Positions 30,162 to 44,961 of a stretch of DNA of 64,000 bases are shown piece by piece. Under the pieces are notes generated by a model that saw nothing but the letters and a program-made list of their open reading frames with translations, ran no database searches and was not told the DNA's origin. The position numbers were made by a program, and so were the translations under genes. The stretch spans positions 62,001-126,000 of the forward strand of contig JAHCAR010000003.1 in NCBI GenBank assembly GCA_019634795.1, written 5' to 3'. This stretch comes from Dokdonella sp. GTDB lineage: Bacteria; Pseudomonadota; Gammaproteobacteria; Xanthomonadales; Rhodanobacteraceae. The first letter of the stretch is position 1; every line of letters starts with the position of its first letter.

Positions 30162-30235
30162 GGCCTGGTGGCAGAGTGGTCATGCAGCGGCCTGCAAAGC
30201 CGCGTACGCCGGTTCGATTCCGACCCAGGCCTCCA
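30162..30235 (+). tRNA. tRNA-Cys (GCA), integration site
   Basis: A 74-nt tRNA with acceptor GGCCTGG/CCAGGCC, U discriminator, encoded CCA and anticodon loop CTGCAAA giving GCA. Its 3' 58 nt are part of the 59-bp att repeat, so the gene was kept whole after integration of the adjacent element. No clear -35/-10 pair is seen between the upstream terminator and the tRNA. Confidence 0.96.
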
Positions 30236-30236
30236 T
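30178..30236 (+). other. attL in tRNA-Cys
   Basis: A 59-bp sequence from the anticodon arm side of tRNA-Cys through the CCA and one extra T, identical to 44903-44961. Confidence 0.93.
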
Positions 30237-30238
30237 AT

Positions 30239-30261
30239 AAATCAGTAAGTTACACTGATTT
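30239..30261. promoter_or_regulatory. Perfect inverted repeat inside attL
   Basis: AAATCAGT and ACTGATTT flank a 7-nt spacer 3 bp inside the element. Position suggests an integrase arm-type site or operator of int; the function is inferred. Confidence 0.5.
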
Positions 30262-30379
30262 TCTCATCCCCCGTTCGACCTTTTTTCGCCGACTTTTTCG
30301 AGGCCAGCCACTCGAAAATCGGCCAAAACCACGCGTACTCGATAGCGCATGCCGTGTACGCGGGTTCCGGGGTGAATCT

Positions 30380-31495
30380 GTGGCTACCAAACGCGAACGC
30401 AACAACCGTTGGCATTACGTGATCCGGCGCGGCGAACTGCTGCCCAAACCGGTCTATCTGTCATTCCCAACTGAGCGCGAAGGGGACGAGTACGTCGCCC
30501 GGCTCGAAGCCCTTCTAGACCGGGGAATCGTCCCCGATGAAGTGAAGGACGGGCCGAAGAAACGGCCCCGGCTGCTGATCGAGGCCACGCGCGAATATCT
30601 TGCTCGGCAGCATGTGTCCGAGGTGGACCGCGAACAACTTCGATTGGCCGCCGAGCACTTGCCGCCCGGGATCGAACTGCGTGCGCTGACGTTCGCATGG
30701 GCGTCGGAGTGGACCACGAGTCTGAAAAGACGGCACAACCTCGCACCATCCACGATCCGGCATCGAGTGGGCGCCCTAGCACGCTGCCTAGACTGGATCG
30801 CGGCGCACGCGGACATTCCGACCAACCCGCTGCGATTGCTGCCGAAGGGCTACTCGATCTACACCCCTGAGGACTCGCGCGTCGTGCTTGCTGCTGACGG
30901 CGTGGTGAAGCTTTCGCAGGAACGCGACCGGAGGCTATGGGAGGGCGAGGAAGAGCGAATCAGGGCGATCCTCGCCGGTGAGCGTCCGAAGGGCCGCCAG
31001 CGCCCGTTGGAGCTTCACGAGGCGCCCTCGTTGGTCCTGCTGTTCGACCTGGCTCTAGAGTCGGCCATGCGGTTGCGCGAAATGTTCACGCTGACTTGGG
31101 ATCAGGTGGACGTGTCCCGGCGGACGGTGTTCCTAGACAAGACCAAGAACGGCGACCGGCGGCAGGTGCCGTTGTCATCGGTTGCGGTGCGTTTGCTTGG
31201 GATGCGTGCCGGCCGGGCGGGGCAGGTATTCCCTTGGTGGGATGGGAGCGACAACCGGAAGTCGCTAGGCCGGACGACTTCGCTACTGTCGCGCCAGTTC
31301 GCGCGGATTTTCAGCGCGGCGAGGTGCATGGACCTGCACTTCCACGACCTGCGCCACGAGGCTACTAGCCGGCTTTTCGAGCGGACCACGCTGGACGCGA
31401 TCGAGATTGCCAAGATTACGGGACACCGGTCCCCACGCTCCCTGATGCGGTATGCGAACCTGCGAGCTTCGACGCTGGCGGAGCGAATGTGGTGA
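30380..31495 (+). CDS. int: Tyrosine-type site-specific integrase
   Basis: A 371-residue phage integrase. The catalytic set is visible: Arg231 in 'ESAMRLREMFTLTW', His322-x2-Arg325 in 'HFHDLRHEATSRLFE', His349 in 'ITGHRSP' and nucleophile Tyr358 in 'LMRYANLR'. The N-terminal half is the arm-binding and core-binding region. GTG at 30380 is chosen because GGGGTGA lies 5 nt upstream; the reading frame runs open back into the tRNA but has no start signal there. It sits directly inside attL, as expected for an integrase that uses tRNA-Cys. Confidence 0.93.
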   Translation: MATKRERNNRWHYVIRRGELLPKPVYLSFPTEREGDEYVARLEALLDRGIVPDEVKDGPKKRPRLLIEATREYLARQHVSEVDREQLRLAAEHLPPGIELRALTFAWASEWTTSLKRRHNLAPSTIRHRVGALARCLDWIAAHADIPTNPLRLLPKGYSIYTPEDSRVVLAADGVVKLSQERDRRLWEGEEERIRAILAGERPKGRQRPLELHEAPSLVLLFDLALESAMRLREMFTLTWDQVDVSRRTVFLDKTKNGDRRQVPLSSVAVRLLGMRAGRAGQVFPWWDGSDNRKSLGRTTSLLSRQFARIFSAARCMDLHFHDLRHEATSRLFERTTLDAIEIAKITGHRSPRSLMRYANLRASTLAERMW

Positions 31496-31514
31496 CGCTT
31501 GAGAATCCAAGAGC

Positions 31515-32198
31515 CTAGGGCTTCTTCCCTTCCGGCATTTCGTCCAAGTACTTCTTCGTAAGGACGACATGGCGAATCCAGCCAGCAGTAAGGTCAACGA
31601 GCGTGTTGAGGTCAGTTATGTCCTTATCTTCCCAACGCCGGATGTAGTGAGTTTCGTCATTGCCAAGCCAAGCCGCTCGTTCGGCGCAGGCATTGATGTT
31701 TGTGTCTTTGATGAACGTCTTGATGCAGTACATGAGATTCGCGCCTTTGATCTCATCACTTCTACTTGGATCGAGATACGCGCAGAAGTCTTTTACGAGG
31801 AATTCAAGCGCTTTCCGCAACGCGATCCCGGTGACCTCTTTCAAGCCATAGCTTTCTGCCGCCTTGGCTTGTTGATAGATGCTCACGAACGATTGAGATA
31901 CTTTTTCGACTTCTGGAGCTATTGCCGGTTTAACAAGCTCCTTCGGAAGGATGCGATCAACACTCAAATTGACTTCGCTAGCCGAGCTTCCTGAGACCTT
32001 GCATCGTGCGATATACACATGAAAGCAAGAGTGTCGTGGGCATCGCAGAATGACTTCAAAACGACCCGGAATCCCTGGGGGGGACGGCATGGAAACATGG
32101 GTCACAAAGATCGGGACGATTCCGTGGTGACAGATTGGGCAAGTGTCGACAATGCCGGGCAGGGTATAGGTGCTGCGTTCGTTCTTGAACGAAATCAT
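31515..32198 (-). CDS. DUF4145 domain-containing protein
   Basis: A 227-residue protein. The N-terminus carries a zinc-ribbon-like 'CPICHHG' with a later 'CPRHSCFHVY'. The C-terminal half is a DUF4145 module ('ALRKALEFLVKDFC', 'WLGNDETHYIRRWED'), a HEPN-like helical fold often found in defence and restriction contexts. AAGGGA lies 8 nt before the ATG. It converges with the integrase, in a position where satellites often keep accessory genes. Role unknown; defence is only a suggestion. Confidence 0.82.
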   Translation of the reverse strand: MISFKNERSTYTLPGIVDTCPICHHGIVPIFVTHVSMPSPPGIPGRFEVILRCPRHSCFHVYIARCKVSGSSASEVNLSVDRILPKELVKPAIAPEVEKVSQSFVSIYQQAKAAESYGLKEVTGIALRKALEFLVKDFCAYLDPSRSDEIKGANLMYCIKTFIKDTNINACAERAAWLGNDETHYIRRWEDKDITDLNTLVDLTAGWIRHVVLTKKYLDEMPEGKKP

Positions 32199-32281
32199 CT
32201 TGAGATTCCCTTGCTATGCTGAATCCACGTCGGTGCGACTCATTCTCCTAGATTCACAATACGGACGGTAGGGCAAACTGC

Positions 32282-32307
32282 AATAGGGCAGCGACCGCTG
32301 CCCTATT
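32282..32307. promoter_or_regulatory. 12-bp perfect palindrome between two minus-strand genes
   Basis: AATAGGGCAGCG and CGCTGCCCTATT are separated by 2 nt. It lies 16 bp beyond the stop of the 136-residue gene (minus strand). No T-run follows, so a hairpin end or an operator for the DUF4145 gene are both possible. Confidence 0.55.
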
Positions 32308-32322
32308 TGGAGAGATGAACAG

Positions 32323-32733
32323 TTACGACTCTTGTGTAGAACCGTCGGATAGCTGGGGTGAAACCGAGAGGCTGCGTATCTCGTCGAGGTCGTACTCAGT
32401 CAAGATGTTTTCCACCTCTGCATCGGTCAGTGCGATGGCTTCGCCCTGATCGAAACCTTTGCCAAGCCGAGCCAAGAAGCTCGCGTGATCCGCGCCGGCT
32501 CGGAATGCAATCCTCAAGTCGTCAACCCTCATTGCTTCCAGCAGGTCGAAACTTGCGAGGTGCACGGTCTCATGGGTTCCGTCTTCCATTGTCACTGGAA
32601 TTCCCAGTATCTCGCCTCTTCGAATGCGCGATAGGTCGTCCCGATTCAATCGGATGCATTGGCGGGTGCTCTGGACGGCCTCGCGCTTCGAACGGCGCAT
32701 GATTGCGGGGGCGGAAATGGTCTTGTTTGTCAT
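32323..32733 (-). CDS. Satellite protein of unknown function
   Basis: A 136-residue protein I do not recognise. Basic N-terminus ('MRRSKREAVQSTRQ') and acidic C-terminal half ('ALTDAEVENILTEYDLDEI'). No signal, membrane segment or known motif. GGAGA 7 nt before the ATG supports translation. Confidence 0.65.
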   Translation of the reverse strand: MTNKTISAPAIMRRSKREAVQSTRQCIRLNRDDLSRIRRGEILGIPVTMEDGTHETVHLASFDLLEAMRVDDLRIAFRAGADHASFLARLGKGFDQGEAIALTDAEVENILTEYDLDEIRSLSVSPQLSDGSTQES

Positions 32734-32845: not shown

Positions 32846-33073
32846 CTAGTCCCGATCGGGCGCGGTCGACCAAGTCACAACGACGCTTCCCCCGCCGACC
32901 ATCGAATCGATGCATAACGCCACGTCGCTGCCGTCGACCCGACCGGCGACCAAATCCATTCCGCCGACCCGGGTGCGGGTTAGGGACTCCATCCGCGCGA
33001 GGACGTCCGCCGTTTGCGCGAACGTAAGGACCGGCACTGCCGGGATTGTCTGGCTCATCGAGAAGTTCTGCAT
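32846..33073 (-). CDS. Small satellite protein of unknown function
   Basis: A 75-residue protein ('MQNFSMSQTIPAVPVLTFAQ' onward) with a helix-strand pattern. GAGGAAG lies 6 nt upstream of the ATG, a good ribosome site. Not recognised; size and place fit an early regulatory gene, but no helix-turn-helix is evident. Confidence 0.6.
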   Translation of the reverse strand: MQNFSMSQTIPAVPVLTFAQTADVLARMESLTRTRVGGMDLVAGRVDGSDVALCIDSMVGGGSVVVTWSTAPDRD

Positions 33074-33184: not shown

Positions 33185-33202
33185 TAAGTCAGCACTGACT
33201 TA
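33185..33202. promoter_or_regulatory. 8-bp perfect palindrome TAAGTCAG-CA-CTGACTTA
   Basis: The 18-bp dyad overlaps the 3' end of the 93-residue gene and lies 111 bp upstream of the 75-residue gene on the same strand. A dimeric regulator site is plausible. Confidence 0.45.
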
Positions 33203-33470
33203 CAGCCCCGCGTTTCAATGCGATTGGCGTCTCCTCTCGGGTCCCCCGTTTCCGGGGCGCGAAATTCCCGAGCACTGCAACTTTGCAATTCGTGCGGGGA
33301 AGCGGCCCACGCGCACGAGGACGCCACAACGTAGGCGGCAGCATGACGAGTTCGCACCCGCCGGCTAGCGTCTTTCGCTGCGGCGGAAGTTCTCGCATGT
33401 TCCAACCCGGTGACTTCTGTGCGAGGCGCACGAGTTCGTCGACGGTGAACGATGATTCTTCGATGTTCAT
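33189..33470 (-). CDS. Small satellite protein of unknown function
   Basis: A 93-residue basic protein starting 'MNIEESSFTVDELVRLAQ'. Only the first 30 residues look like a folded helical segment; the rest is Pro/Arg rich. A 155-residue frame overlaps the same DNA with a less natural composition. Coding status is moderate, and rests on its place in the minus-strand series. Confidence 0.45.
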   Translation of the reverse strand: MNIEESSFTVDELVRLAQKSPGWNMRELPPQRKTLAGGCELVMLPPTLWRPRARGPLPRTNCKVAVLGNFAPRKRGTREETPIALKRGAVSQC

Positions 33471-33502: not shown

Positions 33503-34246
33503 TCAGGCGGCACGTGTGATCGGCGGCGCGGCAGGCTCCACAGCGGTTCCACGCTTCCACATGCCGACTCGGTAGCCGCTGGTATTCGTGTCGAATTTGT
33601 GTGCCGACGTCTTCGACAGCGGAGCCCAGGTCAACGCGTAGAGCCTGCAGCGGCGCCGGTTCGATTCGCGTGTGATGAACAGGAATCCGGTTTCGATTGC
33701 CTCCCGGATCGCATCGGTTAGGGCTCTCTTGCTTCGGTTTTCCCATCCGGAACAGCGGATCACGGATACCGCCGCGGAAACGTCCCCGTTGTTTGCGCGA
33801 AGCCCGGCGAGCACCCGCAAAAGCTTGCGGGTATTCGGTGCGAGGCGGTCCCACTCTGCGGAACGGATGACCTCGTCGGGAATGAGGCAGGGGAGCGGGT
33901 GGGGTGGGACTGTTGCGGCCTTTGGCCGGAGTGTGACCTGTTCGGACTGGCACGGCTCGGCCACGGGTGCCGTGCTGCCTGCGCCTATGACTTCCCGCGG
34001 ATGGTCTATGCCGGCGAGCAAAGAGGCTAGCTCGTCGTCGATCGCTAGACTCTTGGGGTGTTCTGGTTGGGGCGATGGCGGGGTCTGGGCAGTACGTAGC
34101 TGTTCCAGCCGGGCCGGCAACACCTCGTGTTCAAGGAAGTCAGCGTTCCGCCACAACTGCGGGTCGCCGCTTGCGCGCTGAGTGTGGATCGTTTGGCGTA
34201 TGTCCTCGATAGCGTCGACTATTCGATCGGCGTCGGAATCTCGCAT
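33503..34246 (-). CDS. Winged-helix protein, possible replication initiator
   Basis: A 247-residue protein. The N-terminal part is helical ('DADRIVDAIEDIRQTIHTQ'), the middle Pro-rich and disordered. The C-terminal 95 residues ('LAPNTRKLLRVLAGLRANNG', 'RALTDAIREAIETGFLFI') look like a winged helix of the sort found in phage and plasmid replication proteins. The ATG at 34246 has GGAAGG 5 nt upstream. Iteron-like repeats begin about 220 bp upstream, which suits an initiator that binds its own upstream region. No helicase or primase domain is seen, so host replisome recruitment would be needed. Confidence 0.65.
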   Translation of the reverse strand: MRDSDADRIVDAIEDIRQTIHTQRASGDPQLWRNADFLEHEVLPARLEQLRTAQTPPSPQPEHPKSLAIDDELASLLAGIDHPREVIGAGSTAPVAEPCQSEQVTLRPKAATVPPHPLPCLIPDEVIRSAEWDRLAPNTRKLLRVLAGLRANNGDVSAAVSVIRCSGWENRSKRALTDAIREAIETGFLFITRESNRRRCRLYALTWAPLSKTSAHKFDTNTSGYRVGMWKRGTAVEPAAPPITRAA

Positions 34247-34462
34247 GCAGACCTTCCGGAGTGCAGGGGCGCAGTCTCTCGCGCTTGGTCTGGGAGTTTC
34301 GACGCGCGTTCGCTTGGCGTCGGTCGCTGCGCGGTCTCTTGGCAGCGACGCCGCGACGTCGGACGCACCGACTGCGGCTAGCAAAGTCCGGGGAACCGGA
34401 TGTGCAAATGATAGCGGATTTGCTTCGCGGCGTGTTGGGAATTTTCGTGATGGGGTGCGGAA

Positions 34463-34629
34463 AGTTATGCCCCCACTCAACCAGAGTTATGCCCCCAGTT
34501 CCCGAGTTATGCCCCCAAAGTGGGGGACCTAAAAGCTCAAGAGCAAAAGCAAAAGCAAGAGCAAGAACAAGAGCAAGAGCAAGAGCTAAAGGCTTAAGAG
34601 CAAGAGCTTTCGTTTTACTTCGTAAAACG
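34463..34629. other. Iteron cluster and hexamer tract: candidate replication origin
   Basis: Three exact copies of AGTTATGCCCCCA start at 34463, 34485 and 34505 (22 and 20 bp apart, about two helical turns). An AAGAGC/AAAAGC hexamer tract follows at 34534-34608, T-poor on this strand. Then a perfect hairpin CGTTTTAC-TTC-GTAAAACG sits at 34611-34629. The 765-bp gap 34247-35011 holds no convincing gene. Iterons plus a biased tract beside a winged-helix gene fit an origin; this is inference. Confidence 0.65.
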
Positions 34630-35011: not shown

Positions 35012-36694
35012 GTGGCAACTGGAACGACCCGAGCAAAAACGACGAAGCTAGACCGCTGGAAAAACGGCAGCGTCGGCTTTTTCGCATTCCTCGACGACGT
35101 GCAGCCGCGCGTCCGGGATGGCCGGGGCGGCTTCGTTGCATACAACCCGACCGGCGAGGAACACGCAGCGATTGCCGAAGCAATCGACGGCGGTTATTCA
35201 ATTGCGTGTCTGAGCTGGCCGCGACGCCACGGTAAGACAATGGCCGTGATCATGATCGCGCTGTGGCGCTTCATGACGCGCCACGGTGAAGCCGTCGCGA
35301 TCGTCGCGAACTCCCAGACCCAAGCGATCGGAACAGCATTCAAGGCGCTGGTAGACGCGTTCCGGCAGACCCCGACGCTCGCCAAGCTGGTCAAGGCTGG
35401 CGACGTCAAGATTCTCGCCGACCGGATCGAGCTTTCCGAGTTCTCGAACTCGATTCAGGCATTCCCCGCGAATGCCGGGGCTCTGTGGGGTAAGAAGCTC
35501 ACGATTGCCCAGGTATCCGAGTTGCATGCAACGAAGTCCGCCGATGTGCTGGACGCGTTGCAAGGCTCATTGCTTGATAGCGCGGGCTCGCTCCTGCTGG
35601 TCGACAGCACAGTCGGGCCGAAGAGTTCGCCAATCTGGGGACTCTACCAAGAGTCACAGCAGCCCGGCTCGGGCGTGTACTTCTCGCACATCCAATACGC
35701 CGACCTCGACGACGCTGTTGCGAACGCGCCGCCGTGGATCGATACCAATAAACTCCGCGCCCTGTCGCGAACGATGCTGCCCCAGCAATTCGGGTTAATG
35801 CATCTGAATCGTTGGCAGGATGCAAGCTCGGCCCTGTTCTCGACCGAAGTCATCGCGCAATGCACGCGCTCAACGTATCCGGCCGACCTGAAAGCAATCA
35901 CTGCCGGCGCATCATTCGCCGTTGGCGGCGGTCTCGATCGTGCGTTCGGCCTCAGTCGCCACGGCGACGGCACCTATACGGCGGCCGTCCTGAAAATGAT
36001 CCTCGACGATGACGAAGAGCACTTCTTCGTTCTCGCATGTGACCGGGTTGCGTTCTCGCGGCTTGGCGGCATTCGGGCGAACCTGACCCGCTACGGCCGC
36101 GAGTTCAACATGACCCGGCTCGCGCTCGAATCGTTTAACGCGCAAGACGTGCACGACTGGTCCGTCCAGCAATCGGTGTTCGGTGCGGGAACCGAGTTGG
36201 TGCACCCGTCGCGCCGCCTGAAAGCAAACGCATTCACCTCGATGCACGCGATTGCAGCGGAAGGCCGTTTGCATATTGACCCGCGATTCCGCGACTTGCT
36301 CGACGAAATGCGCACGTTCGAAGTCAACTTCGACAACAGCGCCGAGTCTGACGGCGCGTCGTCCATTCCGAAATTTACCCACGCCCGCGGCGCTCATGAC
36401 GACGCGCTACATGCAGTGTGCTGGGCGATTCACTCGCTGCGCGAGTCCGTGCTATCCGGCTATGAACTCGACGGCGTGAACTGCCACGGCACGCCGATCA
36501 ACGTCCCGTTGTGCGTGCTCAACGGCGGCGAGATGGTCCCGTTTGCGTGCGCGGACTCCTGCCGCTCCATGGCGCAGGCGCGAACGCTGCATACCTCCTA
36601 CCTTTCCCGGCAACCGCTGGCACCGCTTCCCCTCGACGAGTTCATCGCGAAGCGCGTGACGGTTACCGGCTTCCACACGATGCCGCGCACATGA
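35012..36694 (+). CDS. terL: Phage terminase large subunit
   Basis: A 560-residue packaging motor. The ATPase Walker A variant is 'SWPRRHGKT' (68-76), followed by Walker-B-like 'LLLVDS' near residue 195. The C-terminal RNase H-like nuclease shows 'GGLDRAFGLSRHGDGTY' and 'HARGAHDDALHAVCWA', with acidic residues in family positions. GTG start at 35012; no strong Shine-Dalgarno. No small-subunit gene is recognised upstream. It overlaps the portal gene by 4 bp (ATGA). Confidence 0.9.
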   Translation: MATGTTRAKTTKLDRWKNGSVGFFAFLDDVQPRVRDGRGGFVAYNPTGEEHAAIAEAIDGGYSIACLSWPRRHGKTMAVIMIALWRFMTRHGEAVAIVANSQTQAIGTAFKALVDAFRQTPTLAKLVKAGDVKILADRIELSEFSNSIQAFPANAGALWGKKLTIAQVSELHATKSADVLDALQGSLLDSAGSLLLVDSTVGPKSSPIWGLYQESQQPGSGVYFSHIQYADLDDAVANAPPWIDTNKLRALSRTMLPQQFGLMHLNRWQDASSALFSTEVIAQCTRSTYPADLKAITAGASFAVGGGLDRAFGLSRHGDGTYTAAVLKMILDDDEEHFFVLACDRVAFSRLGGIRANLTRYGREFNMTRLALESFNAQDVHDWSVQQSVFGAGTELVHPSRRLKANAFTSMHAIAAEGRLHIDPRFRDLLDEMRTFEVNFDNSAESDGASSIPKFTHARGAHDDALHAVCWAIHSLRESVLSGYELDGVNCHGTPINVPLCVLNGGEMVPFACADSCRSMAQARTLHTSYLSRQPLAPLPLDEFIAKRVTVTGFHTMPRT

Positions 36695-37992
36695 TCCGCA
36701 ATCCATTCAAGCGCGAGGAAAACGCGTTTCTCAAGCTCGTGCAGTCCAGCGCCGGCCGCAAGGCCGATGCAGTTCGCCGGCAGCGCTACTACCACGACCA
36801 ACAGGCAGACGAAACTTTCCGCCTGATTGCGCAGCGATTCTCTGACCCTGCGAGCTTCCGCGTTTTCACAATCAACATTCTCCGGCGCATCGTGGACAAG
36901 AGCGCTGCGACTTACCGAGTCGCGCCCAAGCGCGTCTTTTCCGGCTGGTCGCAGGCAGCGGGCGAAGCACTCTATCGGTCGATCAATGCGGATGCCGTGC
37001 TGAAACGCGCTTCGCGCCTGACCAAGCTCCACAAAACGACCGTCATGCGCGTGGCGTGGATCGAAGGCGATCCAGCTCTGTATCTGCACACGCCCGCGAT
37101 TCTCGACGTGGAAGCCGTGGACCCGGAACGCCCGGACCGAATCATCGTCACGCACACGGCCAGCAACCCGGACGGCGTGACGTATTCCGACTGGACGGCC
37201 GACCGCTACACCTTGCGCGATCACCGAGGAAACCGAATCTCGAGCACTGACAATCCGGACGGCGTGAACCCTTACGGCGCGCTTCCATTCGTGCCGCTGT
37301 TCGACGCATTGCCTGATTCGGATTTCTTCCTGCCGGGAGGCGCTGACCTTGTGGAAGCTCAGCAGGCCGTCAACGTCGCGTTGAGCAATTTGTGGCGATC
37401 GGTCGAACTGCAGGCCCACGGCCAAGCATGGGCATCGGGTGTTGGCGCCGGAACGCGACTGGAAACGGGTCCGAACCGCGCGATCCTCTTGCCGACCGAA
37501 GGCAAGTTCGGTTTCGCCGCGCCGAATTCGCCAATCGACTCGATCCTAAACGCAATCGAGTTTGTGATGCGCCAGGTATCCGCGACGAACGCCGTCGGCG
37601 CCGACATTTTCGACCTCAGCAAATCCAGCGAATCGGCCAGCGCCAAAGCCGCGGCCCGGATCGACCTGAAGGAAGCCCGGGCGGACGACATTGCATTGTG
37701 GCGCGTCTCCGAATCGCGACTGTTCGACGTACTCAAGGCCGTGGTGAACACGCACAAGCCGGGAACCATTCCGGCCGAGGCCTCGATGCGTGTCGACTTT
37801 GCCGACCAGCAAGACGAACTCACCGAGGCGGAGTCACTCGCGAACGCGACGACCAAGCAAGAGCTGGGCATCTGGTCGCCTGTTGACGTGCTCATGAATT
37901 CGAACCCCGACGGCTATCCAACACGCGCCGACGCATACACCGAGCTGATGCGGCGCCGCGACGAAACCCAAACTTTGACGCTTCCTCTGTAA
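36691..37992 (+). CDS. Phage portal protein
   Basis: A 433-residue portal protein, the dodecameric DNA gate at the capsid vertex. The N-terminal part has 'DAVRRQRYYHDQQADETFRL' and 'INILRRIVDKSAATYRVAPK', typical of the SPP1/HK97-like wing and clip. The later helical region contains 'LVEAQQAVNVALSNLW'. Position between terL and the capsid gene supports the call. The ATG at 36691 is fixed by the 4-bp overlap with terL. Confidence 0.85.
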   Translation: MIRNPFKREENAFLKLVQSSAGRKADAVRRQRYYHDQQADETFRLIAQRFSDPASFRVFTINILRRIVDKSAATYRVAPKRVFSGWSQAAGEALYRSINADAVLKRASRLTKLHKTTVMRVAWIEGDPALYLHTPAILDVEAVDPERPDRIIVTHTASNPDGVTYSDWTADRYTLRDHRGNRISSTDNPDGVNPYGALPFVPLFDALPDSDFFLPGGADLVEAQQAVNVALSNLWRSVELQAHGQAWASGVGAGTRLETGPNRAILLPTEGKFGFAAPNSPIDSILNAIEFVMRQVSATNAVGADIFDLSKSSESASAKAAARIDLKEARADDIALWRVSESRLFDVLKAVVNTHKPGTIPAEASMRVDFADQQDELTEAESLANATTKQELGIWSPVDVLMNSNPDGYPTRADAYTELMRRRDETQTLTLPL

Positions 37993-38005: not shown

Positions 38006-38338
38006 ATGCCCGATGAACTAAACAACACGAACGCGCCCACGGCCGAACAGATCCGCGCGACCTTGCTTGCTGAACTGGCAACCGAACGCGCAGCGCTCAC
38101 GGTCGCGGCGGAAGAACTGCTCACGGCCGAACTCGCGGCCATCCCCGAATCCCTGCGCGCACTCGTGCCCGACGTGACCACGGCCGAAAAGCTGGCGTGG
38201 ATCAGGAAGGCGAAGGCAGCGCAGCCCCAGACCGTCCCGGCGACCGACCAGCGCCGGCCCACCAACAACCCGCCACCGCCCGACGTGGCGTCGCTGTCCC
38301 CGATTGCTCGCATTGCTGCGGGCTACAACAAGAACTGA
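38006..38338 (+). CDS. Putative scaffold-like head protein
   Basis: A 110-residue acidic, Ala/Glu-rich helical protein ('EQIRATLLAELATERAALTV') with a Pro-rich stretch near the C-terminus ('RRPTNNPPPPDV'). It lies between portal and major capsid genes, where scaffold proteins or proteases usually sit. It is too short for a protease and has no catalytic motif. Scaffold is inferred from place and composition. Confidence 0.6.
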   Translation: MPDELNNTNAPTAEQIRATLLAELATERAALTVAAEELLTAELAAIPESLRALVPDVTTAEKLAWIRKAKAAQPQTVPATDQRRPTNNPPPPDVASLSPIARIAAGYNKN

Positions 38339-38355: not shown

Positions 38356-39258
38356 ATGCTGACCGTTACCGAGTGGGAAAAACTCAACCCGACGCCGCTG
38401 GCTTCCGGCGTCGTCGAAATCTTCGCGCGCGAAAATCCGGTGCTCGCGGCGATGCCGTTCCAGAACATCGCCGGCAACAGCTATCGTTACAACGTCGAAC
38501 AGACCTTGCCGGGCGTCGCCTTCCGCGACATTGGCGAGGGCTACACCGAGTCGACCGGCGTCATCAATCCGGCGACCGAAGCACTGCGCATCCTTGGCGG
38601 TGATTCCGATTTCGATACCGCGCAGATCGCCATGGGCACCGGCGACAACGACAGTCGCGCCGTCCACGACGCGATGAAGGCCAAGGCCCTCGCGCTGACG
38701 TGGCTGGATACGTTTTTCCATGGCGACAATACGGCGAACCCCAAGGAGTTCGACGGACTCGCCAATCGCCTGACGGGCAATCAGGTGATCTACGCGGGCG
38801 CCAACGGTGCGCAGTTGACGATGGACATGCTCGACGACCTCGTCGACGCGGTGAACGGCGAGCCGTCCGTGTTGCTGTGCTCCAAGCCGATCCGCCGTGC
38901 AATCACCAAGCTCGCGCGCAACTCGTCCAATTTGAGCTGGACGGTCGATCAGTTCGGCCGACAGGTCGCCGTGTATGCCGGCGTTCCGATCGGCATCATC
39001 GAAGAGGGCGCGGACGGTAACCCGATTCTCGCGTTCGACGAGACACGCGGCACCAGCGACATTACGGGTTCGATCTATGCGGTCCGCTTCGGCGCCGACA
39101 TGCTCAGTGGCATTCAGACGGCCCCGGTCAGCGTCCGCGACCTTGGCGAGATCGACGCCAAGCCGGCGCTGCGAACCCGTATCGAATGGTTCTCGGGCGT
39201 GGTCCTGAAGCATCCACGCTGCGCCGCACGCCTTGCCGGGATTCTCGCGCCGGCATAA
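38356..39258 (+). CDS. Phage major capsid protein
   Basis: A 300-residue HK97-fold-type capsid protein ('GVVEIFARENPVLAAMPFQN', 'DRFGADMLSGIQ'-like C-terminal region, 'EPSVLLCSKPIRRAITKLAR'). It has no long N-terminal delta domain, consistent with a separate small scaffold. A 9-bp GC hairpin 20 bp after its stop could limit read-through and help keep capsid mRNA abundant. Confidence 0.87.
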   Translation: MLTVTEWEKLNPTPLASGVVEIFARENPVLAAMPFQNIAGNSYRYNVEQTLPGVAFRDIGEGYTESTGVINPATEALRILGGDSDFDTAQIAMGTGDNDSRAVHDAMKAKALALTWLDTFFHGDNTANPKEFDGLANRLTGNQVIYAGANGAQLTMDMLDDLVDAVNGEPSVLLCSKPIRRAITKLARNSSNLSWTVDQFGRQVAVYAGVPIGIIEEGADGNPILAFDETRGTSDITGSIYAVRFGADMLSGIQTAPVSVRDLGEIDAKPALRTRIEWFSGVVLKHPRCAARLAGILAPA

Positions 39259-39406: not shown

Positions 39407-39730
39407 ATGTTTGCAGCCGATATCGCGTCATTCCTTCCCGACACGGTCCATCACGCAACGCGCACCACGTCCACGGGCGCGGGGGCGGGCGTATTCGGCG
39501 AAGAACGGCCCTATCGCGCCCGGGTTGTCCGCAAGTTGCGCAGCATCTATCGCAAGACGGAAGGCGGTTACACGCTCATTGAGTCGAGTTGCCAAGCGTG
39601 GATTGCCGGCCTTTCGTCCATCCAATTCGCTGATCGGCTGCGACTGCCCGACGGGTCCACGCCGCCGATTCTCATGATCGAGCAAGTCCCGGACGAACGG
39701 GGCGAACTCTTCACAAAGGTCTATCTCTGA
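39407..39730 (+). CDS. Small head-completion protein candidate
   Basis: A 107-residue protein ('MFAADIASFLPDTVHHATRT' onward; 'RPYRARVVRKLRSIYRKTEGG'). Size and place after the capsid gene fit a head-closure or stopper protein, and the beta-rich centre agrees. It is 1 bp upstream of the connector gene. Longer in-frame starts at 39320 are less likely because they cross the hairpin region. Confidence 0.65.
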   Translation: MFAADIASFLPDTVHHATRTTSTGAGAGVFGEERPYRARVVRKLRSIYRKTEGGYTLIESSCQAWIAGLSSIQFADRLRLPDGSTPPILMIEQVPDERGELFTKVYL

Positions 39731-39731
39731 A

Positions 39732-40196
39732 ATGGTCACGATCGGCGAAGATACTTTCGTTTCACTCGAGTACGCCAATGCCTACTTTGCACGGCGCCCG
39801 TACTCAAGTGCGTGGACAGCTGCCACCGAAGAGGCCCGCGAAAACGCCTTGATCGCCGCAGCCCGGCATCTGGACGTGCTGGACTGGGAAGGCTTCCGGA
39901 CCTCGAAGGCGCAGCCGCTTTCGTGGCCGCGTCGCTACGTTCTCGACCACGAAGGCGAGCTCGTCCCGGCCGACATCATCCCGCCCCGGCTGGCGCAGGC
40001 TCAGTGCGAGCTTGCGATTCTCTCGCTGTCCAAGGACCTGACCACGACCGAGCCCGGCATCCGCCGCAAGCGCGTTGGCGACCTTGAAGTCGAATACGAA
40101 TCCGCAATGCCGGACGTCCTCCCGACCCATGTTCGCCGGCTCGTGTCGTCCCTGATGCGCGATCAATCGCCGCATTCGGCCCGCCTGATCTTCTGA
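39732..40196 (+). CDS. Head-tail connector (gp6/DnaT-like) protein
   Basis: A 154-residue protein with the pattern 'VSLEYANAYFARR ... ALIAAARHLDVLDWEG ... PLSWPR', typical of phage proteins annotated as DnaT-like ssDNA-binding or head-tail adaptors. Its location supports the adaptor role. Translationally close to both neighbours. Confidence 0.8.
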   Translation: MVTIGEDTFVSLEYANAYFARRPYSSAWTAATEEARENALIAAARHLDVLDWEGFRTSKAQPLSWPRRYVLDHEGELVPADIIPPRLAQAQCELAILSLSKDLTTTEPGIRRKRVGDLEVEYESAMPDVLPTHVRRLVSSLMRDQSPHSARLIF

Positions 40197-40202: not shown

Positions 40203-41183
40203 ATGACCGACACAACCACACAACTGCAACAGGCGCTTTCGGCTGTGTTCCGGTCGATTGCCGGCCAAGTCGACCCCGAAGCATTGGGCCGCGCGGTGAC
40301 AGCAAACGACCTCGCCGCGATTTATGCCGCATTCGGTGTCAGCCCGGCCGGCACCGAGTGGCCCGCACTCGACAATGCCATCTGCCAAGCACTGGCCGAC
40401 GAACTGTTGCCCCTGATCCAGACCACCGCCCAGACCGAACAGGAGGCACTAGGCGCCGTGCTTCCATCCTTTGCCCCGGATGCGTCGCTCTACGAGGAGA
40501 CACGCGCCACGATCGTTTCTGACACGCTGTCGGGCTTCGTGGCCGCCGTGGCCTTGTTGCTTGCATCCAGCGCGTCGGATGCAGACAAGGTGCTCCGCAT
40601 TCGGCAGGCCGTAGGGATGACCAGTCCCCAAGCCGAACTGTTCGCCCTCACGCAACAGCACGTCGCAAACCTATTCAACAAGTCGACAGGTGCAGCATTC
40701 GACAAGCTCCGCACTGGCACGTCGAATCAGACTCGTGCTGACTTCCTTGCACTCGCGCTGCGTTCACTGCATCCGACCATCCGGGCCGCAATCCGCCGCA
40801 TGCTGGATCGGGCAGAGGGTAGGGCATTGCTACCGAGTGACACCGAAGCCCTCTTCAAGTCGCTTTCCAAATCCTTGATCGACTACCGGTCACGCGCCGT
40901 CGCTGACCTCGCCAACACGGCCGCAATCAACGCCGCGTTGTTGGCCGTGTGGCTTGCCGCCCAGGCATCCGGAATCCTTGAACGCGACGCCCGCAAGTAT
41001 TGGCACGACCGGGGAGACGATCGTGTCCGCGTCACGCACCATCAGATTGAACTGATGAACGCGCAGGGCGTGCCCCTCGATCAACCGTTCGCTAACCCAC
41101 TCGGCAAAGCGCTGATGTTCCCGCCGGCGGAATACGGCTGCCGGTGCCGAATCGCACTGGTCCCGAAAAGGGCTGCGGCATGA
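40203..41183 (+). CDS. Phage head morphogenesis protein (SPP1 gp7/Mu F type)
   Basis: A 326-residue minor head protein. The C-terminal domain carries the family pattern 'YWHDRGDDRVRVTHHQIELMN ... FANPLGKALMFPP ... GCRCRI'. Such proteins bind portal and are packaged in the head, perhaps guiding DNA ejection. The 4-bp overlap with the next gene couples them. Confidence 0.85.
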   Translation: MTDTTTQLQQALSAVFRSIAGQVDPEALGRAVTANDLAAIYAAFGVSPAGTEWPALDNAICQALADELLPLIQTTAQTEQEALGAVLPSFAPDASLYEETRATIVSDTLSGFVAAVALLLASSASDADKVLRIRQAVGMTSPQAELFALTQQHVANLFNKSTGAAFDKLRTGTSNQTRADFLALALRSLHPTIRAAIRRMLDRAEGRALLPSDTEALFKSLSKSLIDYRSRAVADLANTAAINAALLAVWLAAQASGILERDARKYWHDRGDDRVRVTHHQIELMNAQGVPLDQPFANPLGKALMFPPAEYGCRCRIALVPKRAAA

Positions 41184-41587
41184 AGGCGTGGGGCGACGAG
41201 ACATCGCACGGTCTGCACCCCGACTTTGCCGCACCGGCATACATCAGGATTCCGCAAATGGCGATTGTGCTTGCAGTGCAGGACGCATGCGGTAAGCCCA
41301 GCAACGGCACGCAAGATGCGAAGCAATGGATCTTCGGGACGGGCGGCAACTTTGAAGAGTTCGCAATGATGGCCGGATGGGACCCGGACTGGCTGCGACG
41401 CAAGGTGCGCCAATTGCTGGAAAGCGAGCAGCCCATAAGGCGGACGAGTCGGTTATCAGGGAGGCCGCGGCAGGGCGTGGACGCGGACGACGATTTCGAC
41501 GAATGGGAAACCAACGATATTCCGGCCCCTCGCGCGCTCCGCAGTCCAGCAAAACGCGCAGAAAACGCCCCGAGGGCCAACGCATGA
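41180..41587 (+). CDS. Satellite protein of unknown function
   Basis: A 135-residue protein ('MKAWGDETSHGLHPDFAAPAY'). Conserved-looking 'QDAKQWIFGTGGNFEEFAMMAGWDPDWLRRKVRQLLE' at the centre suggests a small helical DNA-binding or adaptor domain; the tail is Arg/Ala rich. ATGA overlaps on both sides. It may be a terminase-small-subunit-like gene displaced downstream; that is speculative. Confidence 0.7.
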   Translation: MKAWGDETSHGLHPDFAAPAYIRIPQMAIVLAVQDACGKPSNGTQDAKQWIFGTGGNFEEFAMMAGWDPDWLRRKVRQLLESEQPIRRTSRLSGRPRQGVDADDDFDEWETNDIPAPRALRSPAKRAENAPRANA

Positions 41588-41970
41588 CCGCCCCGCATTC
41601 CGACCAAGACACCCCGGCCCGGCTCGTCATCGGCGGCGAGCCTGTCGACCTTCGGACCCGTGAGGCGCGGCGCTTTCGCGACCTGTTGGCCGACCTGACC
41701 GACCAGCTAGACGGCGACCCGACCCCGGCCGAGCGCATGCAACTGGTGCAGGCGGCCACGCTGCAGGCATTGTGCGAGCGCGGGACCGCGGCATTGCTGC
41801 GTGGCGAGGCATTCGAGCCCGAAGACTACCGGCGCAACGTGACGGCCTTGCGGTCGGTCCTGACCGCGCTGGGGCTGGCGATGAAGAGCCGGGACATCAC
41901 CAAAGGCAACTTGCGCCGGGGTAAGTCGGCCTTGTCCGCAATGATCGAGGGCGAGGCCGAAGAGGTCTAG
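41584..41970 (+). CDS. Satellite helical protein of unknown function
   Basis: A 128-residue helical protein ('RTREARRFRDLLADLTDQL', 'AERMQLVQAATLQALCERG'). No recognised family. Overlaps the previous gene by 4 bp and ends the packaging/head operon. Its charged helices resemble small terminase or head-binding proteins in composition only. Confidence 0.7.
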   Translation: MTAPHSDQDTPARLVIGGEPVDLRTREARRFRDLLADLTDQLDGDPTPAERMQLVQAATLQALCERGTAALLRGEAFEPEDYRRNVTALRSVLTALGLAMKSRDITKGNLRRGKSALSAMIEGEAEEV

Positions 41971-42102: not shown

Positions 42103-42681
42103 ATGACCAAAGCGGCTATTTATCTCCGGGTCTCGACCGACGGCCAGACAACCGAGCACCAGCGCCGGGAACTCGCCGAAGTCGCGGCCCGCCGCGGCTG
42201 GGAGGTTGTTGAGTTCTATGAGGATGCAGGTATCAGCGGCAGCAAGGGCCGCGACAAGCGCCCGGCCCTCGATCGCATGTTGAAAGACGCCACGCGCAAG
42301 CGCTTCGACGTGATCGCGGCGTGGTCCGTGGACCGTCTAGGCCGTAGTCTGCCGCATCTGGTCGAAATGCTCGGGGAGATTCACGGGGTAGGGTGTGACC
42401 TGTATCTGCATCAGCAAGCCGTGGACACGGCTACGCCCTCCGGCCGGGCGCTGTTCGGCATGATGGGCGTATTCGCCGAATTCGAGCGCGCAATGATCCG
42501 CGAGCGCGTCATGGCAGGGCTTGCAACGGCCCGTAAGCGCGGCGTGAAGCTTGGCCGCCGCAGGGTCGGCGGGGAAGTGGAGGGCAAAATCCGGGCGTTG
42601 CGGCAGCAAGGCCACGGAATGCTCAAGATTGCGAAAGAGGTAGGCTGCGGCGTGTCCGTGGTGCAACGCGTACTGAACTAG
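42103..42681 (+). CDS. Serine recombinase (resolvase/invertase)
   Basis: A 192-residue small serine recombinase. Catalytic Ser11 lies in 'YLRVSTDGQ'; other family blocks are 'FYEDAGISGSKGRDKRPAL', 'WSVDRLGRSLPHLVE' and 'MMGVFAEFERAMIRERV'. A C-terminal helix-turn-helix ('GMLKIAKEVGCGVSVVQRVL') follows. Such enzymes resolve multimers or invert segments. It follows a dyad operator and is followed by a strong terminator, so it forms its own unit. Confidence 0.93.
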   Translation: MTKAAIYLRVSTDGQTTEHQRRELAEVAARRGWEVVEFYEDAGISGSKGRDKRPALDRMLKDATRKRFDVIAAWSVDRLGRSLPHLVEMLGEIHGVGCDLYLHQQAVDTATPSGRALFGMMGVFAEFERAMIRERVMAGLATARKRGVKLGRRRVGGEVEGKIRALRQQGHGMLKIAKEVGCGVSVVQRVLN

Positions 42682-42707
42682 CTGACCCAACCCATCCAGA
42701 TCGACCG

Positions 42708-42732
42708 AGCCCGCCCTGTGCGGGCTTTTTTG
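42708..42732 (+). terminator. Rho-independent terminator of the serine recombinase
   Basis: A perfect 7-bp stem AGCCCGC/GCGGGCT with loop CCTGT is followed by TTTTTT. Confidence 0.93.
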
Positions 42733-42754: not shown

Positions 42755-42773
42755 CCCTTCGTGGGCGAAGAAG

Positions 42774-42801
42774 CTACCACAATTTTTATACTTTCTGGTA
42801 G
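42774..42801 (+). promoter_or_regulatory. Dyad around a -10-like box before the cargo genes
   Basis: CTACCA (42774) and TGGTAG (42796) flank TATACT (42787-42792). The region is AT rich compared with its surroundings. It fits a repressed promoter of the 96-, 155- and 89-residue genes. Confidence 0.5.
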
Positions 42802-42875
42802 ATTCGACCTGGCCGTCATGAAATTTGTAGGCGCTCTAGGAGCGGCATTCCTCAGAAAGTCAACGGGAGTAGTTT

Positions 42876-43166
42876 GTGGAAGACAAGATCTACGAAGCAA
42901 TCGGAGTCTGGGCGCGCCCCTTCACTTGGTTCACCAGTCACCCTGCGGACGAAAAGCGGTTTCACGAAGCAATAACAAACATCTATGAGCAAATCGGTCC
43001 GGACGTCAGCGAAGAAGACTTCCGAAACGCGTTGAAGAGACATCGTTCGGAGAATACCGAAGGGCTAGGCGGTAAGCCGAACGATGAAATGCTCGAAAAG
43101 CATGTACAGCGCGCAATGGACGTGATCGCGTATCTGAAAAACCAAGGCGAACACCTGAAGGAGTAG
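42876..43166 (+). CDS. Cargo protein 1, unknown
   Basis: A 96-residue helical protein ('DEKRFHEAITNIYEQIGPDV', 'EMLEKHVQRAMDVIAYL'). GTG start with GGGAG 6 nt upstream. Lower GC than the head genes. First of three closely spaced genes (3 bp to the next), in a region that satellites use for cargo such as phage defence. Not recognised. Confidence 0.7.
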   Translation: MEDKIYEAIGVWARPFTWFTSHPADEKRFHEAITNIYEQIGPDVSEEDFRNALKRHRSENTEGLGGKPNDEMLEKHVQRAMDVIAYLKNQGEHLKE

Positions 43167-43169
43167 ACA

Positions 43170-43637
43170 GTGGAAGCAATCAATGTCTCGTTCTTGACGC
43201 CGTCGAAAGCGATCATTCGTGATTTTGACAACGGTCAGTTGTGCGTCTTGCGAATTGGTCGGACAGGCTTTCCGGTTACCAAGAGTGACGTGTCTCTGGC
43301 GTTGTCGAAGATGAAGGCAGTTCGCGAAATTGAACAGCTTTATCGTGAAAGATCGCAAACGGCTGGATTCTTGCGAGTTAGAGCTTTGGACGTCGACAAC
43401 AAGCATTCCTACTCAACGACCGTCTTTGTCGACCTCGTTGTCGCCCATGGCACAAACGAAAAGGACAGCGCGCTTCTCCTCGAAATGGCCAAAGTCTTAG
43501 TCCTTGGGCATGAAGAGTTGGCAGAAGTGGATTCGAACGGTTGCTTTGTGCAGACAGAAATCGCGCTTAAGGATGCGCTGCTTTCGAGCGACAACTTTCA
43601 TCGAGACGCAGAATCATTCTACGAGCAGCACCTATAG
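43170..43637 (+). CDS. Cargo protein 2, unknown
   Basis: A 155-residue alpha/beta protein ('LTPSKAIIRDFDNGQLCVLR', 'VDNKHSYSTTVFVDLVVAHG'). No membrane segment, and no nuclease or nucleotide-binding motif I can identify. GTG start with AAGGAG about 7 nt upstream, overlapping the end of cargo gene 1. Its tight spacing with genes 1 and 3 suggests a joint function. Confidence 0.72.
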   Translation: MEAINVSFLTPSKAIIRDFDNGQLCVLRIGRTGFPVTKSDVSLALSKMKAVREIEQLYRERSQTAGFLRVRALDVDNKHSYSTTVFVDLVVAHGTNEKDSALLLEMAKVLVLGHEELAEVDSNGCFVQTEIALKDALLSSDNFHRDAESFYEQHL

Positions 43638-43646
43638 GGGAAGAGT

Positions 43647-43916
43647 ATGTCAGTAAAGGGCGATAAAATTGAATTGATCGAAGCCTCGCCTCGCTTTGAA
43701 ATGTCGCGGGAGCTGGGGACCGGAAATCGTGGCGTGGCTCGAACCTTCGTAGGGTTCGCGGCAATTGGAGCCAACTGCTTAGGGTGCAATTGCTCATGGA
43801 CGGCTCGTCATGGCCAGTTCCGCGAGACTCCGGGGTATGTAACGCTCACATGTCCCTCGTGCGGTAACGAAGAGCCATTCAAGGGAGTTGACGTCAAGAC
43901 TCTAGTTGACCGCTAA
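43647..43916 (+). CDS. Cargo protein 3, small zinc-ribbon protein
   Basis: An 89-residue protein with a four-cysteine zinc ribbon: 'NCLGCNC' near residue 48 and 'TCPSCG' near residue 73. An AGGGG-type ribosome site lies 9 bp after gene 2. Zinc ribbons of this size act in nucleic-acid or protein contacts; the target is unknown. Confidence 0.72.
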   Translation: MSVKGDKIELIEASPRFEMSRELGTGNRGVARTFVGFAAIGANCLGCNCSWTARHGQFRETPGYVTLTCPSCGNEEPFKGVDVKTLVDR

Positions 43917-44042
43917 ACCGATCGTGCACAATTGGCTAGACTCGTCGGACGACAGTCGATCGAGCGTTGTGGTCTCACGTCTACAGCCAGCACTTGCATT
44001 GAGATGCCGGTCCCATGGGCCAGCGCCAAACCGGCGTCCTTT

Positions 44043-44075
44043 GCGCCTTTTTGCGCCTGTCATTTGGTGGTCGAT
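44043..44075 (+). repeat. Right imperfect direct repeat of the cargo cassette
   Basis: Partner of 42722-42754 (27 of 33 positions alike). Together they bracket the three cargo genes. The 183-bp gap 43917-44099 holds nothing else. Confidence 0.55.
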
Positions 44076-44099
44076 AGGATTCCTCGGAACTTCGGCGCA

Positions 44100-44513
44100 C
44101 TACCTATGCTTGAATAGCTCGGCCAACTTCATAATCTCGCTGTCTAGCAAAGCGTCGACTTCCCGGCCCCTGGCGCTCTCCAATCTATATTGCTCCATTG
44201 CACCGTGATAGCTTTCCGCAATGGTTCGCAAGCCTTCCTCTGCAGCGTTCCGCACTATCTCCACTTCTTCCGGTATCAAAGAAGAAAACAACGCGGAGGC
44301 TTGCAATGTCGTATAGACGGATCTTCCCGCAAGTCTCAAGCGTTCCGTGGTCTTCTCCTTAAATGAATTGGCGAGAGGCCCGTTTGGTGCGCTAAACCCT
44401 CGCGCCGAGAATGACTCCAATGCAACTTGAAAGTCTTTCTGAAGCGCTGATGCCTGAACGTCAATCACCTTTTGCACTTGCGCCATCGCGGCTTGTGCGG
44501 CTTCTCCGGGCAT
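44100..44513 (-). CDS. Satellite helical protein, phasin-like composition
   Basis: A 137-residue protein, Ala-rich and helical throughout ('AMAQVQKVIDVQASALQKDF', 'EVEIVRNAAEEGLRTIAESY'). The heptad-like pattern resembles phasin or coiled-coil proteins, but homology is not established. It opposes the cargo genes and is the last gene before attR. The following 44514-44902 interval has only a doubtful 69-codon frame. Confidence 0.62.
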   Translation of the reverse strand: MPGEAAQAAMAQVQKVIDVQASALQKDFQVALESFSARGFSAPNGPLANSFKEKTTERLRLAGRSVYTTLQASALFSSLIPEEVEIVRNAAEEGLRTIAESYHGAMEQYRLESARGREVDALLDSEIMKLAELFKHR

Positions 44514-44902
44514 ATTGGCTACTCCTACATGGATATCGCGTTACCTTTGGGCTTGCCGCAGGTCCTTTCAAGGCCTAGGTCGGGAAAGAAAGAATGAAGG
44601 GCGTATGCGAAAATTTTGTCCATCGCGCTTCAAGTTGCGATCGTTAGAGCCACGGAATCCGCGGCTGCGGGGGCGCCACAGACGAAACTCTCTGTGAAGG
44701 CAGGCAAAATCCCTACAGGTCAAGGCAGGAAAGACGTACTCGCTGCAGTCGGACCGCCGACGTCCACGGCCCGCACTCCCGATCAGATGTTGGCCGTGTA
44801 CGTGAGCAGCAAAACGGCGTCCTGATGCGGTATTCTCAGGGTCGATTTTGAGGCGGTTTTGGCTGGCGAACGTGGCAGAGTAGGTAAGGCATTGGGGCGA
44901 TA

Positions 44903-44961
44903 GGTCATGCAGCGGCCTGCAAAGCCGCGTACGCCGGTTCGATTCCGACCCAGGCCTCCAT
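44903..44961 (+). other. attR: 3' tRNA-Cys duplicate
   Basis: Identical to 30178-30236. It lacks the acceptor 5' strand and D-arm, so it is not a functional tRNA. A 10-bp copy of GTGGCAGAGT from the tRNA D-arm lies 21 bp to its left (44872-44881). Between here and kdpE (44962-45161) no gene is visible. Confidence 0.93.

Follow-up and report, generated by a model that had tools for sequence, protein, structure and literature searches.

A probable capsid-forming phage satellite at a tRNA-Cys gene of Dokdonella sp. and its relatives in other bacteria

In a stretch of 64,000 nucleotides from Dokdonella sp. (contig JAHCAR010000003.1, positions 62,001 to 126,000; hereafter the window, to which all coordinates without a locus label refer), a 14.7-kb element is integrated at a tRNA-Cys gene between positions 30178 and 44961. 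It is highly probable, in our opinion, that this element is a capsid-forming phage satellite from a lineage separate from the capsid-forming phage-inducible chromosomal islands (cfPICIs). The lineage is apparently undescribed: no such family in these hosts is mentioned in the titles and abstract openings of the open-licence papers listed by our literature searches. Since the element has the parts needed to build a head, without recognisable genes for tail or lysis, it probably spreads by borrowing the tails of a true virus. The anatomy read from the sequence is well supported up to the step at which a tail would dock; what follows in the life cycle we infer. The original prediction for this DNA had proposed a phage-inducible island that makes its own capsid, and most of its gene inventory has held up, as described below.

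Borders and head genes of the element

The borders are marked by identical 59-nt direct repeats, the attachment (att) sites, which correspond to the 3' part of the tRNA-Cys gene:

30162..30235, plus strand: tRNA-Cys gene, the integration target (left copy, intact)
30178..30236, plus strand: attL, 59-nt direct repeat
44903..44961, plus strand: attR, 59-nt direct repeat identical to attL

With up to three mismatches allowed, the window contains the 26-nt end of the repeat at these two sites alone, against a chance expectation of 0, and the right tRNA-Cys copy scores 30.6 bits, barely above the Rfam tRNA threshold of 29. In two related genomes (G003 and G004) tRNA-Gly, tRNA-Cys and tRNA-Leu lie adjacent and free of the element. 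These empty sites, together with the exact repeats, confirm the predicted insertion into tRNA-Cys. The order pgsA-tRNA-Gly-tRNA-Cys-tRNA-Leu is also that of E. coli and suggests a host among the gammaproteobacteria. The G+C content per kb is 0.52-0.65 across the element (31-44 kb), and it is 0.65-0.68 in the 3 kb to the left of 30 kb and 0.68-0.70 over 45-51 kb. All 21 listed gene frames translate without an internal stop and no broken gene was found, in agreement with the original prediction.

The core of the element is a rightward operon of head genes, in the following order:

35012..36694, plus strand: large terminase subunit TerL, GTG start (phrog_9 E 8.3e-18; PF03354 24.3 bits against a cut-off of 23.7)
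36691..37992, plus strand: portal protein (phrog_145 E 1.7e-6, a weak match; 4-nt overlap with terL)
38006..38338, plus strand: small protein in the interval between portal and capsid, by its position probably the scaffold
38356..39258, plus strand: major capsid protein of the GP7 type (phrog_212 E 9.2e-78; PF20911 E 2.6e-19)
39407..39730, plus strand: 107-aa protein, probable stopper or head-closure (neck) protein (AlphaFold model with pLDDT 83.6; no informative family match)
39732..40196, plus strand: head-tail adaptor Ad1 (phrog_477 E 2.1e-33)
40203..41183, plus strand: MuF-like minor head protein (phrog_3517 E 1e-15; PF04233 E 4.5e-4, under its cut-off)
41180..41587, plus strand: small protein of unknown function (4-nt overlaps on both sides; relative in locus L002; scanned as a longer form from 41144)
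41584..41970, plus strand: conserved helical protein, candidate small terminase subunit (multiple alignment; model with pLDDT 80; no family match)

Neighbouring genes overlap by 4 nt at three places, according to their coordinates. The predicted TerL, capsid and connectors, like the integrase described below, are borne out by profile matches, with the exception of the second connector, which is recognised by its fold only; the portal has its weak profile match and relatives throughout the bounded elements of the family. Searches of PDB sequences with the portal and TerL profiles gave no match. In nine aligned TerL sequences (the window and eight relatives) the presumed Walker A motif and nuclease triad do not vary, and neither do four cysteines near the C-terminus (window 36482-36562), which possibly form a zinc site of this terminase family. 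The Pfam matches of the capsid protein are PF20911 and SU10_MCP only. A search of PDB with its profile retrieves three capsid proteins of solved structure, 3j4u, 8cjz and 3j40, the first and the last of which we take to be the capsids of BPP-1 and epsilon15, respectively.

The gene at 39407-39730 had been left unnamed by the original prediction. In a Foldseek search with its predicted model the first 11 rows are all neck, connector or head-tail-interface entries, led by the neck of phiCD508 (E 2e-4) and followed by others at E 0.012-0.026, including SPP1 gp16. Judging from this model, the protein is probably a stopper, i.e. the last head part ahead of a long tail. Relatives of Ad1 occur in 236 phage records, and 4 of the 12 listed bear siphovirus names. 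Residues 220-322 of the MuF-like protein match one PHROG family that bears the annotation head maturation protease (E 1.4e-8); we read this stretch as the shared MuF region. A gene of the 41584 type immediately precedes TerL in L071 and L159 and stands farther upstream of it in L072 and L073; small terminases account for 4 of the 50 fold matches shown for the 41584-41970 model, none of them significant.

In contrast to this set of head genes, no tail or lysis family rose above chance when 20 of the 21 listed proteins (two of them as longer open reading frame forms) were scanned against PHROGs and Pfam; the one frame left out was the 69-codon frame 44616-44825. The nearest tail match was that of a tail-tube-initiator Pfam model to 43170-43634, with E 0.19, far under the cut-off. 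No HNH, AlpA, Pri-Rep or separate head maturation protease was recognised in the same 20 proteins, and no holin-like or fibre-like protein among those of the element. Hydropathy revealed no membrane segment among the small proteins: out of 21 frames only the MuF-like protein exceeded 1.6 (1.86), and a membrane protein of the window, serving as control, reached 2.15. The predicted lack of tail and lysis genes is thereby confirmed, as regards recognisable genes, for the scanned proteins.

A family of elements of uniform size

Sought in other genomes, the same gene set recurs in many. We define the family by this TerL, the portal and the GP7-type capsid in about 15 kb between att repeats, all of which are present in the window. 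A TerL-profile search of a species-genome collection returned 28 loci (L numbers denote loci throughout), an undercount because the search was based on one short pattern, and five weak loci of Candidatus Omnitrophota (L084-L088, 19-23% identity) were left out of the family count. The remaining 23 include Sphingomonas, Sphingosinicella, Brevundimonas, Azospirillum, Magnetospirillum, other Alphaproteobacteria and one metagenome-assembled genome from Gammaproteobacteria; six of them, at 28-33% identity, belong to Desulfovibrio and other former Deltaproteobacteria. When viral contigs were searched with the capsid, 59 loci came up, and 17 of these have this TerL as well. As for the predicted extension of such islands to the lineage of the window, the element in the window is real, but the known carriers are mainly alphaproteobacterial, and among 369 genomes sampled across the window's own class only its own genome carries it.

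Borders were searched for at 24 loci (the window and 23 others), and att direct repeats were found at 17 of them, with a spacing of 13,834-16,614 bp (mean 15,255, standard deviation 546); none were found for L002, L007, L065, L070, L072, L077 and L078. This uniform size points to a packaging limit, and we infer a head of about T=4, which by analogy with the satellite MulchRoom (see below) would measure about 45 nm. In 15 of the 17 bounded elements the repeats overlap a called tRNA gene, with six specificities represented (Cys, Pro, Ser, Gln, Met and Lys); those of L006 and L071 lie at no called tRNA. The 17 should not be counted as independent cases, because some are close relatives (e.g. L008 and L068).

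All 16 other bounded elements contain relatives of TerL, portal and capsid detectable by blastp. Relatives of the small pre-capsid protein occur in 14 of these 16, of the 41584-type gene in 13, of the adaptor in 12, of the MuF-like protein in 10 and of the recombinase (see below) in eight, with one intermediate blastp step used for each of these five counts except that of the 41584 type. Relatives of the stopper were found by sequence in L002, L005, L006 and L069 and, via a protein of L062, also in L061-L064, L066 and L070. In some members, L068 among them, integrase and TerL have no visible gene between them. HNH families, unlike in the window element, are present in the pooled proteins of other members.

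Evidence for a living lineage

Purifying selection acts on the head genes in close relatives of the element: in the tested pairs the ratio of non-synonymous to synonymous substitution rates (dN/dS) is 0.00-0.19 for TerL, portal and capsid and 0.09-0.24 for adaptor and MuF, and for the 41584-type gene it is 0.12-0.35 in seven pairs. In an unrooted tree of 78 capsids, into which genome loci entered via their TerL, the 39 capsids from loci with this TerL are separated from the others by a branch with support 98/91.

A full-length prophage with the same packaging module was not found: tblastn searches of 50,697 phage records gave no match to TerL or portal at E 1e-5, and none to the stopper or the 41584-41970 protein at E 0.01. 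TerL likewise had no match in 72,556 plasmids. Profiles do reveal a distant kinship of TerL and portal to phage terminases and portals, and the capsid matches 285 phage records, with at most 47.5% identity among the 20 listed. Contig sizes differ as well: among IMG/VR contigs with this TerL only one of 80 (the best 80 of 125) is above 20 kb, whereas 19 of 42 contigs with a related capsid but without this TerL are (Fisher p 9e-10). The single long contig (50,960 bp) holds an element that closely resembles the one in Brevundimonas L067; no PF10145 tape measure shows in it.

Other genes of the element and its surroundings

The left part of the element consists of the integrase, a leftward block of five genes and a cluster of short repeats:

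30380..31495, plus strand: tyrosine integrase, 371 aa, GTG start, adjoining attL (PF00589 E 2.9e-19; phrog_1 E 3.2e-32)
31515..32198, minus strand: putative DNA-binding protein, possibly a regulator (phrog_1305 'DNA binding protein' E 8.3e-33)
32323..32733, minus strand: 136-aa protein with no assigned function (open frame; best family match E 0.014)
32846..33073, minus strand: 75-aa protein with no assigned function (relative of about 51% identity upstream of TerL in L002)
33189..33470, minus strand: 93-aa protein (open frame, without family match)
33503..34480, minus strand: possible replication initiator, beside three iterons (alternative start ATG at 34246)
34463..34517, unstranded: three exact 13-nt iterons AGTTATGCCCCCA, with starts 22 and 20 bp apart

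As regards a CI-type repressor, the profile scans recognised no repressor family; the family of 31515-32198 is that of a DNA-binding protein of unstated role. The suggested initiator and origin have fared unequally. Three exact copies of AGTTATGCCCCCA stand against 0.01 expected, an expectation to be read with the fact that the pattern was picked after the repeat had been seen, and the cluster may be an origin or a regulator site. The initiator candidate is without profile support, family, PDB and plasmid searches having given one weak plasmid match, to a protein of unknown function, and nothing else. A scan for sigma-70 promoters found nothing and stayed below the count in shuffled sequence.

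At the right end a recombinase is followed by four accessory genes with no assigned function:

42103..42681, plus strand: serine recombinase of the resolvase/invertase type (PF00239 E 1.4e-46)
42707..42727, plus strand: terminator-like hairpin and T run 3' of the recombinase gene (the number of hairpins in the region is not above chance)
42876..43166, plus strand: accessory gene, 96 aa (phrog_3439, unknown, E 2.4e-9)
43170..43637, plus strand: accessory gene, 155 aa (open frame; no family below E 0.1)
43647..43916, plus strand: accessory gene, 89 aa (open frame; no family below E 0.06)
44100..44513, minus strand: accessory gene, 137 aa (open frame; no family below E 0.03)

A PADLOC search of ten window proteins, accessory and regulatory, found no defence gene. 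Among the pooled accessory proteins of eight bounded relatives, the best 25 of 69 families include Shedu SduA, type II methyltransferases and reverse transcriptases, and L062:19947-21344 is a DNA methyltransferase.

The surroundings of the integration site vary among relatives. A short dispersed repeat, matched at many other places in this genome and in its relatives, lies just to the left of the tRNA genes (29761-29812). In the window a kdp-like potassium-transport operon (44962-54728, named by eye) separates tRNA-Cys from tRNA-Leu, whereas in G002-G005 the distance between these two genes is within about 1 kb. In the sister species G002 the same tRNA-Cys site is occupied (L099:2563-3786 and L100:16507-18917): a recombinase region 89% identical lies beside the tRNA, the right end is 91% identical, and both regions run into transposase-like frames (named by eye) at contig ends. 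This locus is probably a degraded relative of the element. In G005 (L101:1909-3061) a second tRNA-Cys copy about 1 kb past the first suggests that a different insertion at this site has left a remnant.

Objections and alternative explanations

Several observations weigh against the satellite interpretation. The small terminase, scaffold and initiator of the element are candidates. The assignment of the stopper comes from one predicted model, with a single match below E 0.001 and TM-scores of about 0.3-0.5; lambda tail-tube proteins follow in the same list from E 0.04, and some of the matched neck entries include tail-terminator chains. A tail-side protein of the same fold is accordingly conceivable from this model, but less likely. 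The pairs used for dN/dS are pairs of relatives, with the window copy left out, and one distant pair (L072-L073) gave 0.76 for the 41584-type gene. Not every copy in the family is intact, because TerL of Brevundimonas L067 (L067:9965-11635) contains one internal stop codon, as does the copy in L136:1769-3439. A resident helper is not visible in the host genome (G000, 85% complete) by three families: PF10145 tape measure, PF04865 baseplate J and phrog_9 terminase were not found, apart from the element's own TerL. With no more than three families searched for in an incomplete genome, this result weighs little. In the genus, PF10145 was found in one of 10 genomes. According to one study, none of 17 resident prophages detectably mobilised the cfPICI of its own strain (PMC11389934), and given that result the absence of a resident helper does not contradict the satellite reading.

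The complete lack of tail genes is furthermore not universal in the family, because four members carry a tape measure protein:

L073:12784-16320: tape measure (phrog_339 E 8.5e-124), in an element of 16.6 kb bounded at tRNA-Met
L158:6968-9238: tape measure (best family phrog_339)
L166:5902-8805: tape measure (best family phrog_1533)
L186:12140-13822: tape measure (best family phrog_10574)

PF10145 was detected in two of 50 family contigs tested, L166 and L186. The tape measure gene is downstream of the head genes in three members and directly upstream of TerL in L166, and these differing families and positions suggest separate gains. No other tail gene was found among the scanned neighbours (four proteins in L073, three in L166 and four in L186); in L158, where the contig ends soon after the tape measure gene, no neighbours were scanned. 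These four proteins also serve as the positive control for the detection of tail genes. Negative results with phrog_339 as a general tape-measure probe carry little weight, because it missed L023 and L026, which are capsid relatives on 34- and 39-kb contigs.

The relatives scanned for tail genes were eight bounded elements (L006, L008, L061, L062, L071, L079, L081 and L082). A first pooled scan comprised 104 non-core proteins, with the best 25 of 83 families inspected. In the rescans, which omitted 28 proteins judged to be integrases, recombinases, adaptors, MuF, primases or similar, 66 pooled proteins matched 24 families (all inspected), with one marginal minor-tail match at E 0.00099, and 10 larger proteins scanned singly matched no tail family. 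Out of 123 listed proteins of relatives, 19 were left out of the pooled scan, namely 13 of L073, four antisense shadows (one in L006, two in L061 and one in L071) and two of L071; seven of these 19 were scanned singly.

Among the alternatives, the one that survives best overlaps with the satellite interpretation itself and holds that a helper is needed for more than tails and lysis, e.g. for replication or for the small terminase. We regard this as possible but doubtful. It is favored by the candidate status of the small terminase and the initiator and by L068, which shows nothing between integrase and TerL; the position of the 41584-type gene directly upstream of TerL in L071 and L159 rather fits a small terminase of the element's own, and the iterons suggest an origin of its own.

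It is improbable that the element is a decaying prophage, i.e. the remnant of an ordinary tailed phage from which deletions have removed the regions for tail, lysis and immunity. Such remnants are common, a probable degraded relative occupies the same site in G002, and the stop codon in TerL of L067 points in the same direction. However, the combination of TerL, portal and capsid is shared by 16 further bounded elements of comparable size, the head genes of relatives are under purifying selection, this TerL or portal occurs in no phage record searched by tblastn, the capsids group together, and the 21 listed frames of the window are open. We have rejected deletion from a prophage as the principal explanation on the grounds of the phage searches, the selection, the capsid tree and the contig sizes.

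Even less probable is a small but complete virus whose own short tail has escaped recognition. Several small genes of the element lack annotation and could in principle provide one, but their products are small, for most of them the comparison of family loci gave no relative, the probable stopper is a neck part of long tails, and no membrane, holin-like or fibre-like protein was recognised. The least probable explanation is a domesticated head or one resembling a gene transfer agent (GTA), which would pack host DNA in place of the element: the conservation of the head genes and members such as L068 would agree with it, but known GTAs are inherited vertically and encode tails, and the integrase, the att repeats, the variety of tRNA sites, the patchy presence (one of 369 class genomes) and the accessory genes all speak against it.

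Comparison with known systems

The capsid of the element belongs to the same protein family as those of the BPP-1/epsilon15-type phages, which, unlike the element, are complete tailed phages. From an ordinary temperate phage or prophage the element differs in its lack of recognised tail and lysis genes.

The features given for cfPICIs in published descriptions are terminases, HNH, portal, protease, capsid, connectors, AlpA and Pri-Rep (PMC10690885, PMC10448857), and PF05065 is the capsid family used for published cf-PICIs (PMC13230959). Both the cfPICIs and the present element are integrated islands (about 14 kb on average there, about 15 kb here) with an integrase and att repeats, a large terminase, a portal, head-tail connectors and a capsid, and without tail genes. 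On the other hand, the capsid of the element is of the GP7 type (PF20911) rather than PF05065, and no separate protease, HNH, AlpA or Pri-Rep is recognised in it. The hosts differ as well: no Alphaproteobacteria appear among the hosts listed in PMC10803314, whereas the carriers of this family are mainly Alphaproteobacteria and former Deltaproteobacteria. The element thus follows the functional plan of a cfPICI but, in the features compared (separate protease, HNH, AlpA, Pri-Rep and PF05065 capsid), departs from that family, and we do not count it as a member; the predicted match to cfPICIs is thus supported as regards the concept of an own head and a borrowed tail, but not as regards membership on the tested features.

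The Streptomyces phage satellites MulchRoom and MiniFlayer also have their own terminases, portal, capsid, scaffold and adaptor, and in electron micrographs the capsids of MulchRoom are small (43.7 nm) while its tail is as long as that of the helper (PMC10690885). They differ in being actinobacterial, in their virulent helpers and in their direct terminal repeats. By sequence the comparison extends to the searches of the phage records, which may or may not include these satellites and which gave no relative of TerL or portal. The cf-PISP satellite-plasmids of Vibrio likewise make heads and lack tail genes, at 15.8 kb, but they are plasmid-borne, have a PF05065 capsid and possess protease and HNH (PMC13230959). 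Certain E. coli satellites with capsid genes, a tape measure and a baseplate component resemble L073, L158, L166 and L186 in that most tail genes are missing (PMC10448857); as described, they are without terminase or adaptors, while the window element has both and lacks a tape measure.

Proposed life cycle

We propose that the element would first be excised and its DNA copied from the iteron region. Its capsid and scaffold proteins would assemble on the portal into a small head, which the terminase of the element would load with about 15 kb of element DNA. The adaptor and the stopper would then shut the head and offer a docking ring to a preformed long tail. Tail and lysis would be provided by a tailed phage, either co-resident or infecting, and the chimeric particle would inject the element into a new cell, where the integrase would insert it at tRNA-Cys.

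Implications

Satellites that make their own heads and steal tails have been described mainly from enterobacteria, lactic-acid bacteria and their relatives (PMC10803314), with others in Vibrio (PMC13230959) and Streptomyces (PMC10690885). Three capsid radiations have been reported for cfPICIs (PMC11389934), to which the present family, with another capsid type and with a terminase and portal that had no tblastn match in the phage records searched, would add a further origin. Such elements can be mistaken for phage fragments in collections of viral contigs, as 79 of the 80 examined IMG/VR TerL records are shorter than 20 kb. The family is present in named strains of Sphingomonas and Brevundimonas, among them the cultivable and harmless carriers Sphingomonas endophytica DSM 101535 and Brevundimonas guildfordensis Sa3CVA3, which makes it directly testable, and its members with a lone tape measure make it testable which parts of the tail a satellite must itself supply.

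It is tempting, although we offer this only tentatively and hold it doubtful, to regard these elements as an old, independent lineage of head-only satellites in Alpha-, Gamma- and former Deltaproteobacteria, with terminase and portal families of its own, which hijacks tails at the docking step and several members of which separately gained a lone tape measure. If this were true, the lone tape measure would let the satellite commit the tail tubes of the helper to its own length or to its own heads, and would represent a tail-redirecting counterpart of the redirection of capsid size by other satellites.

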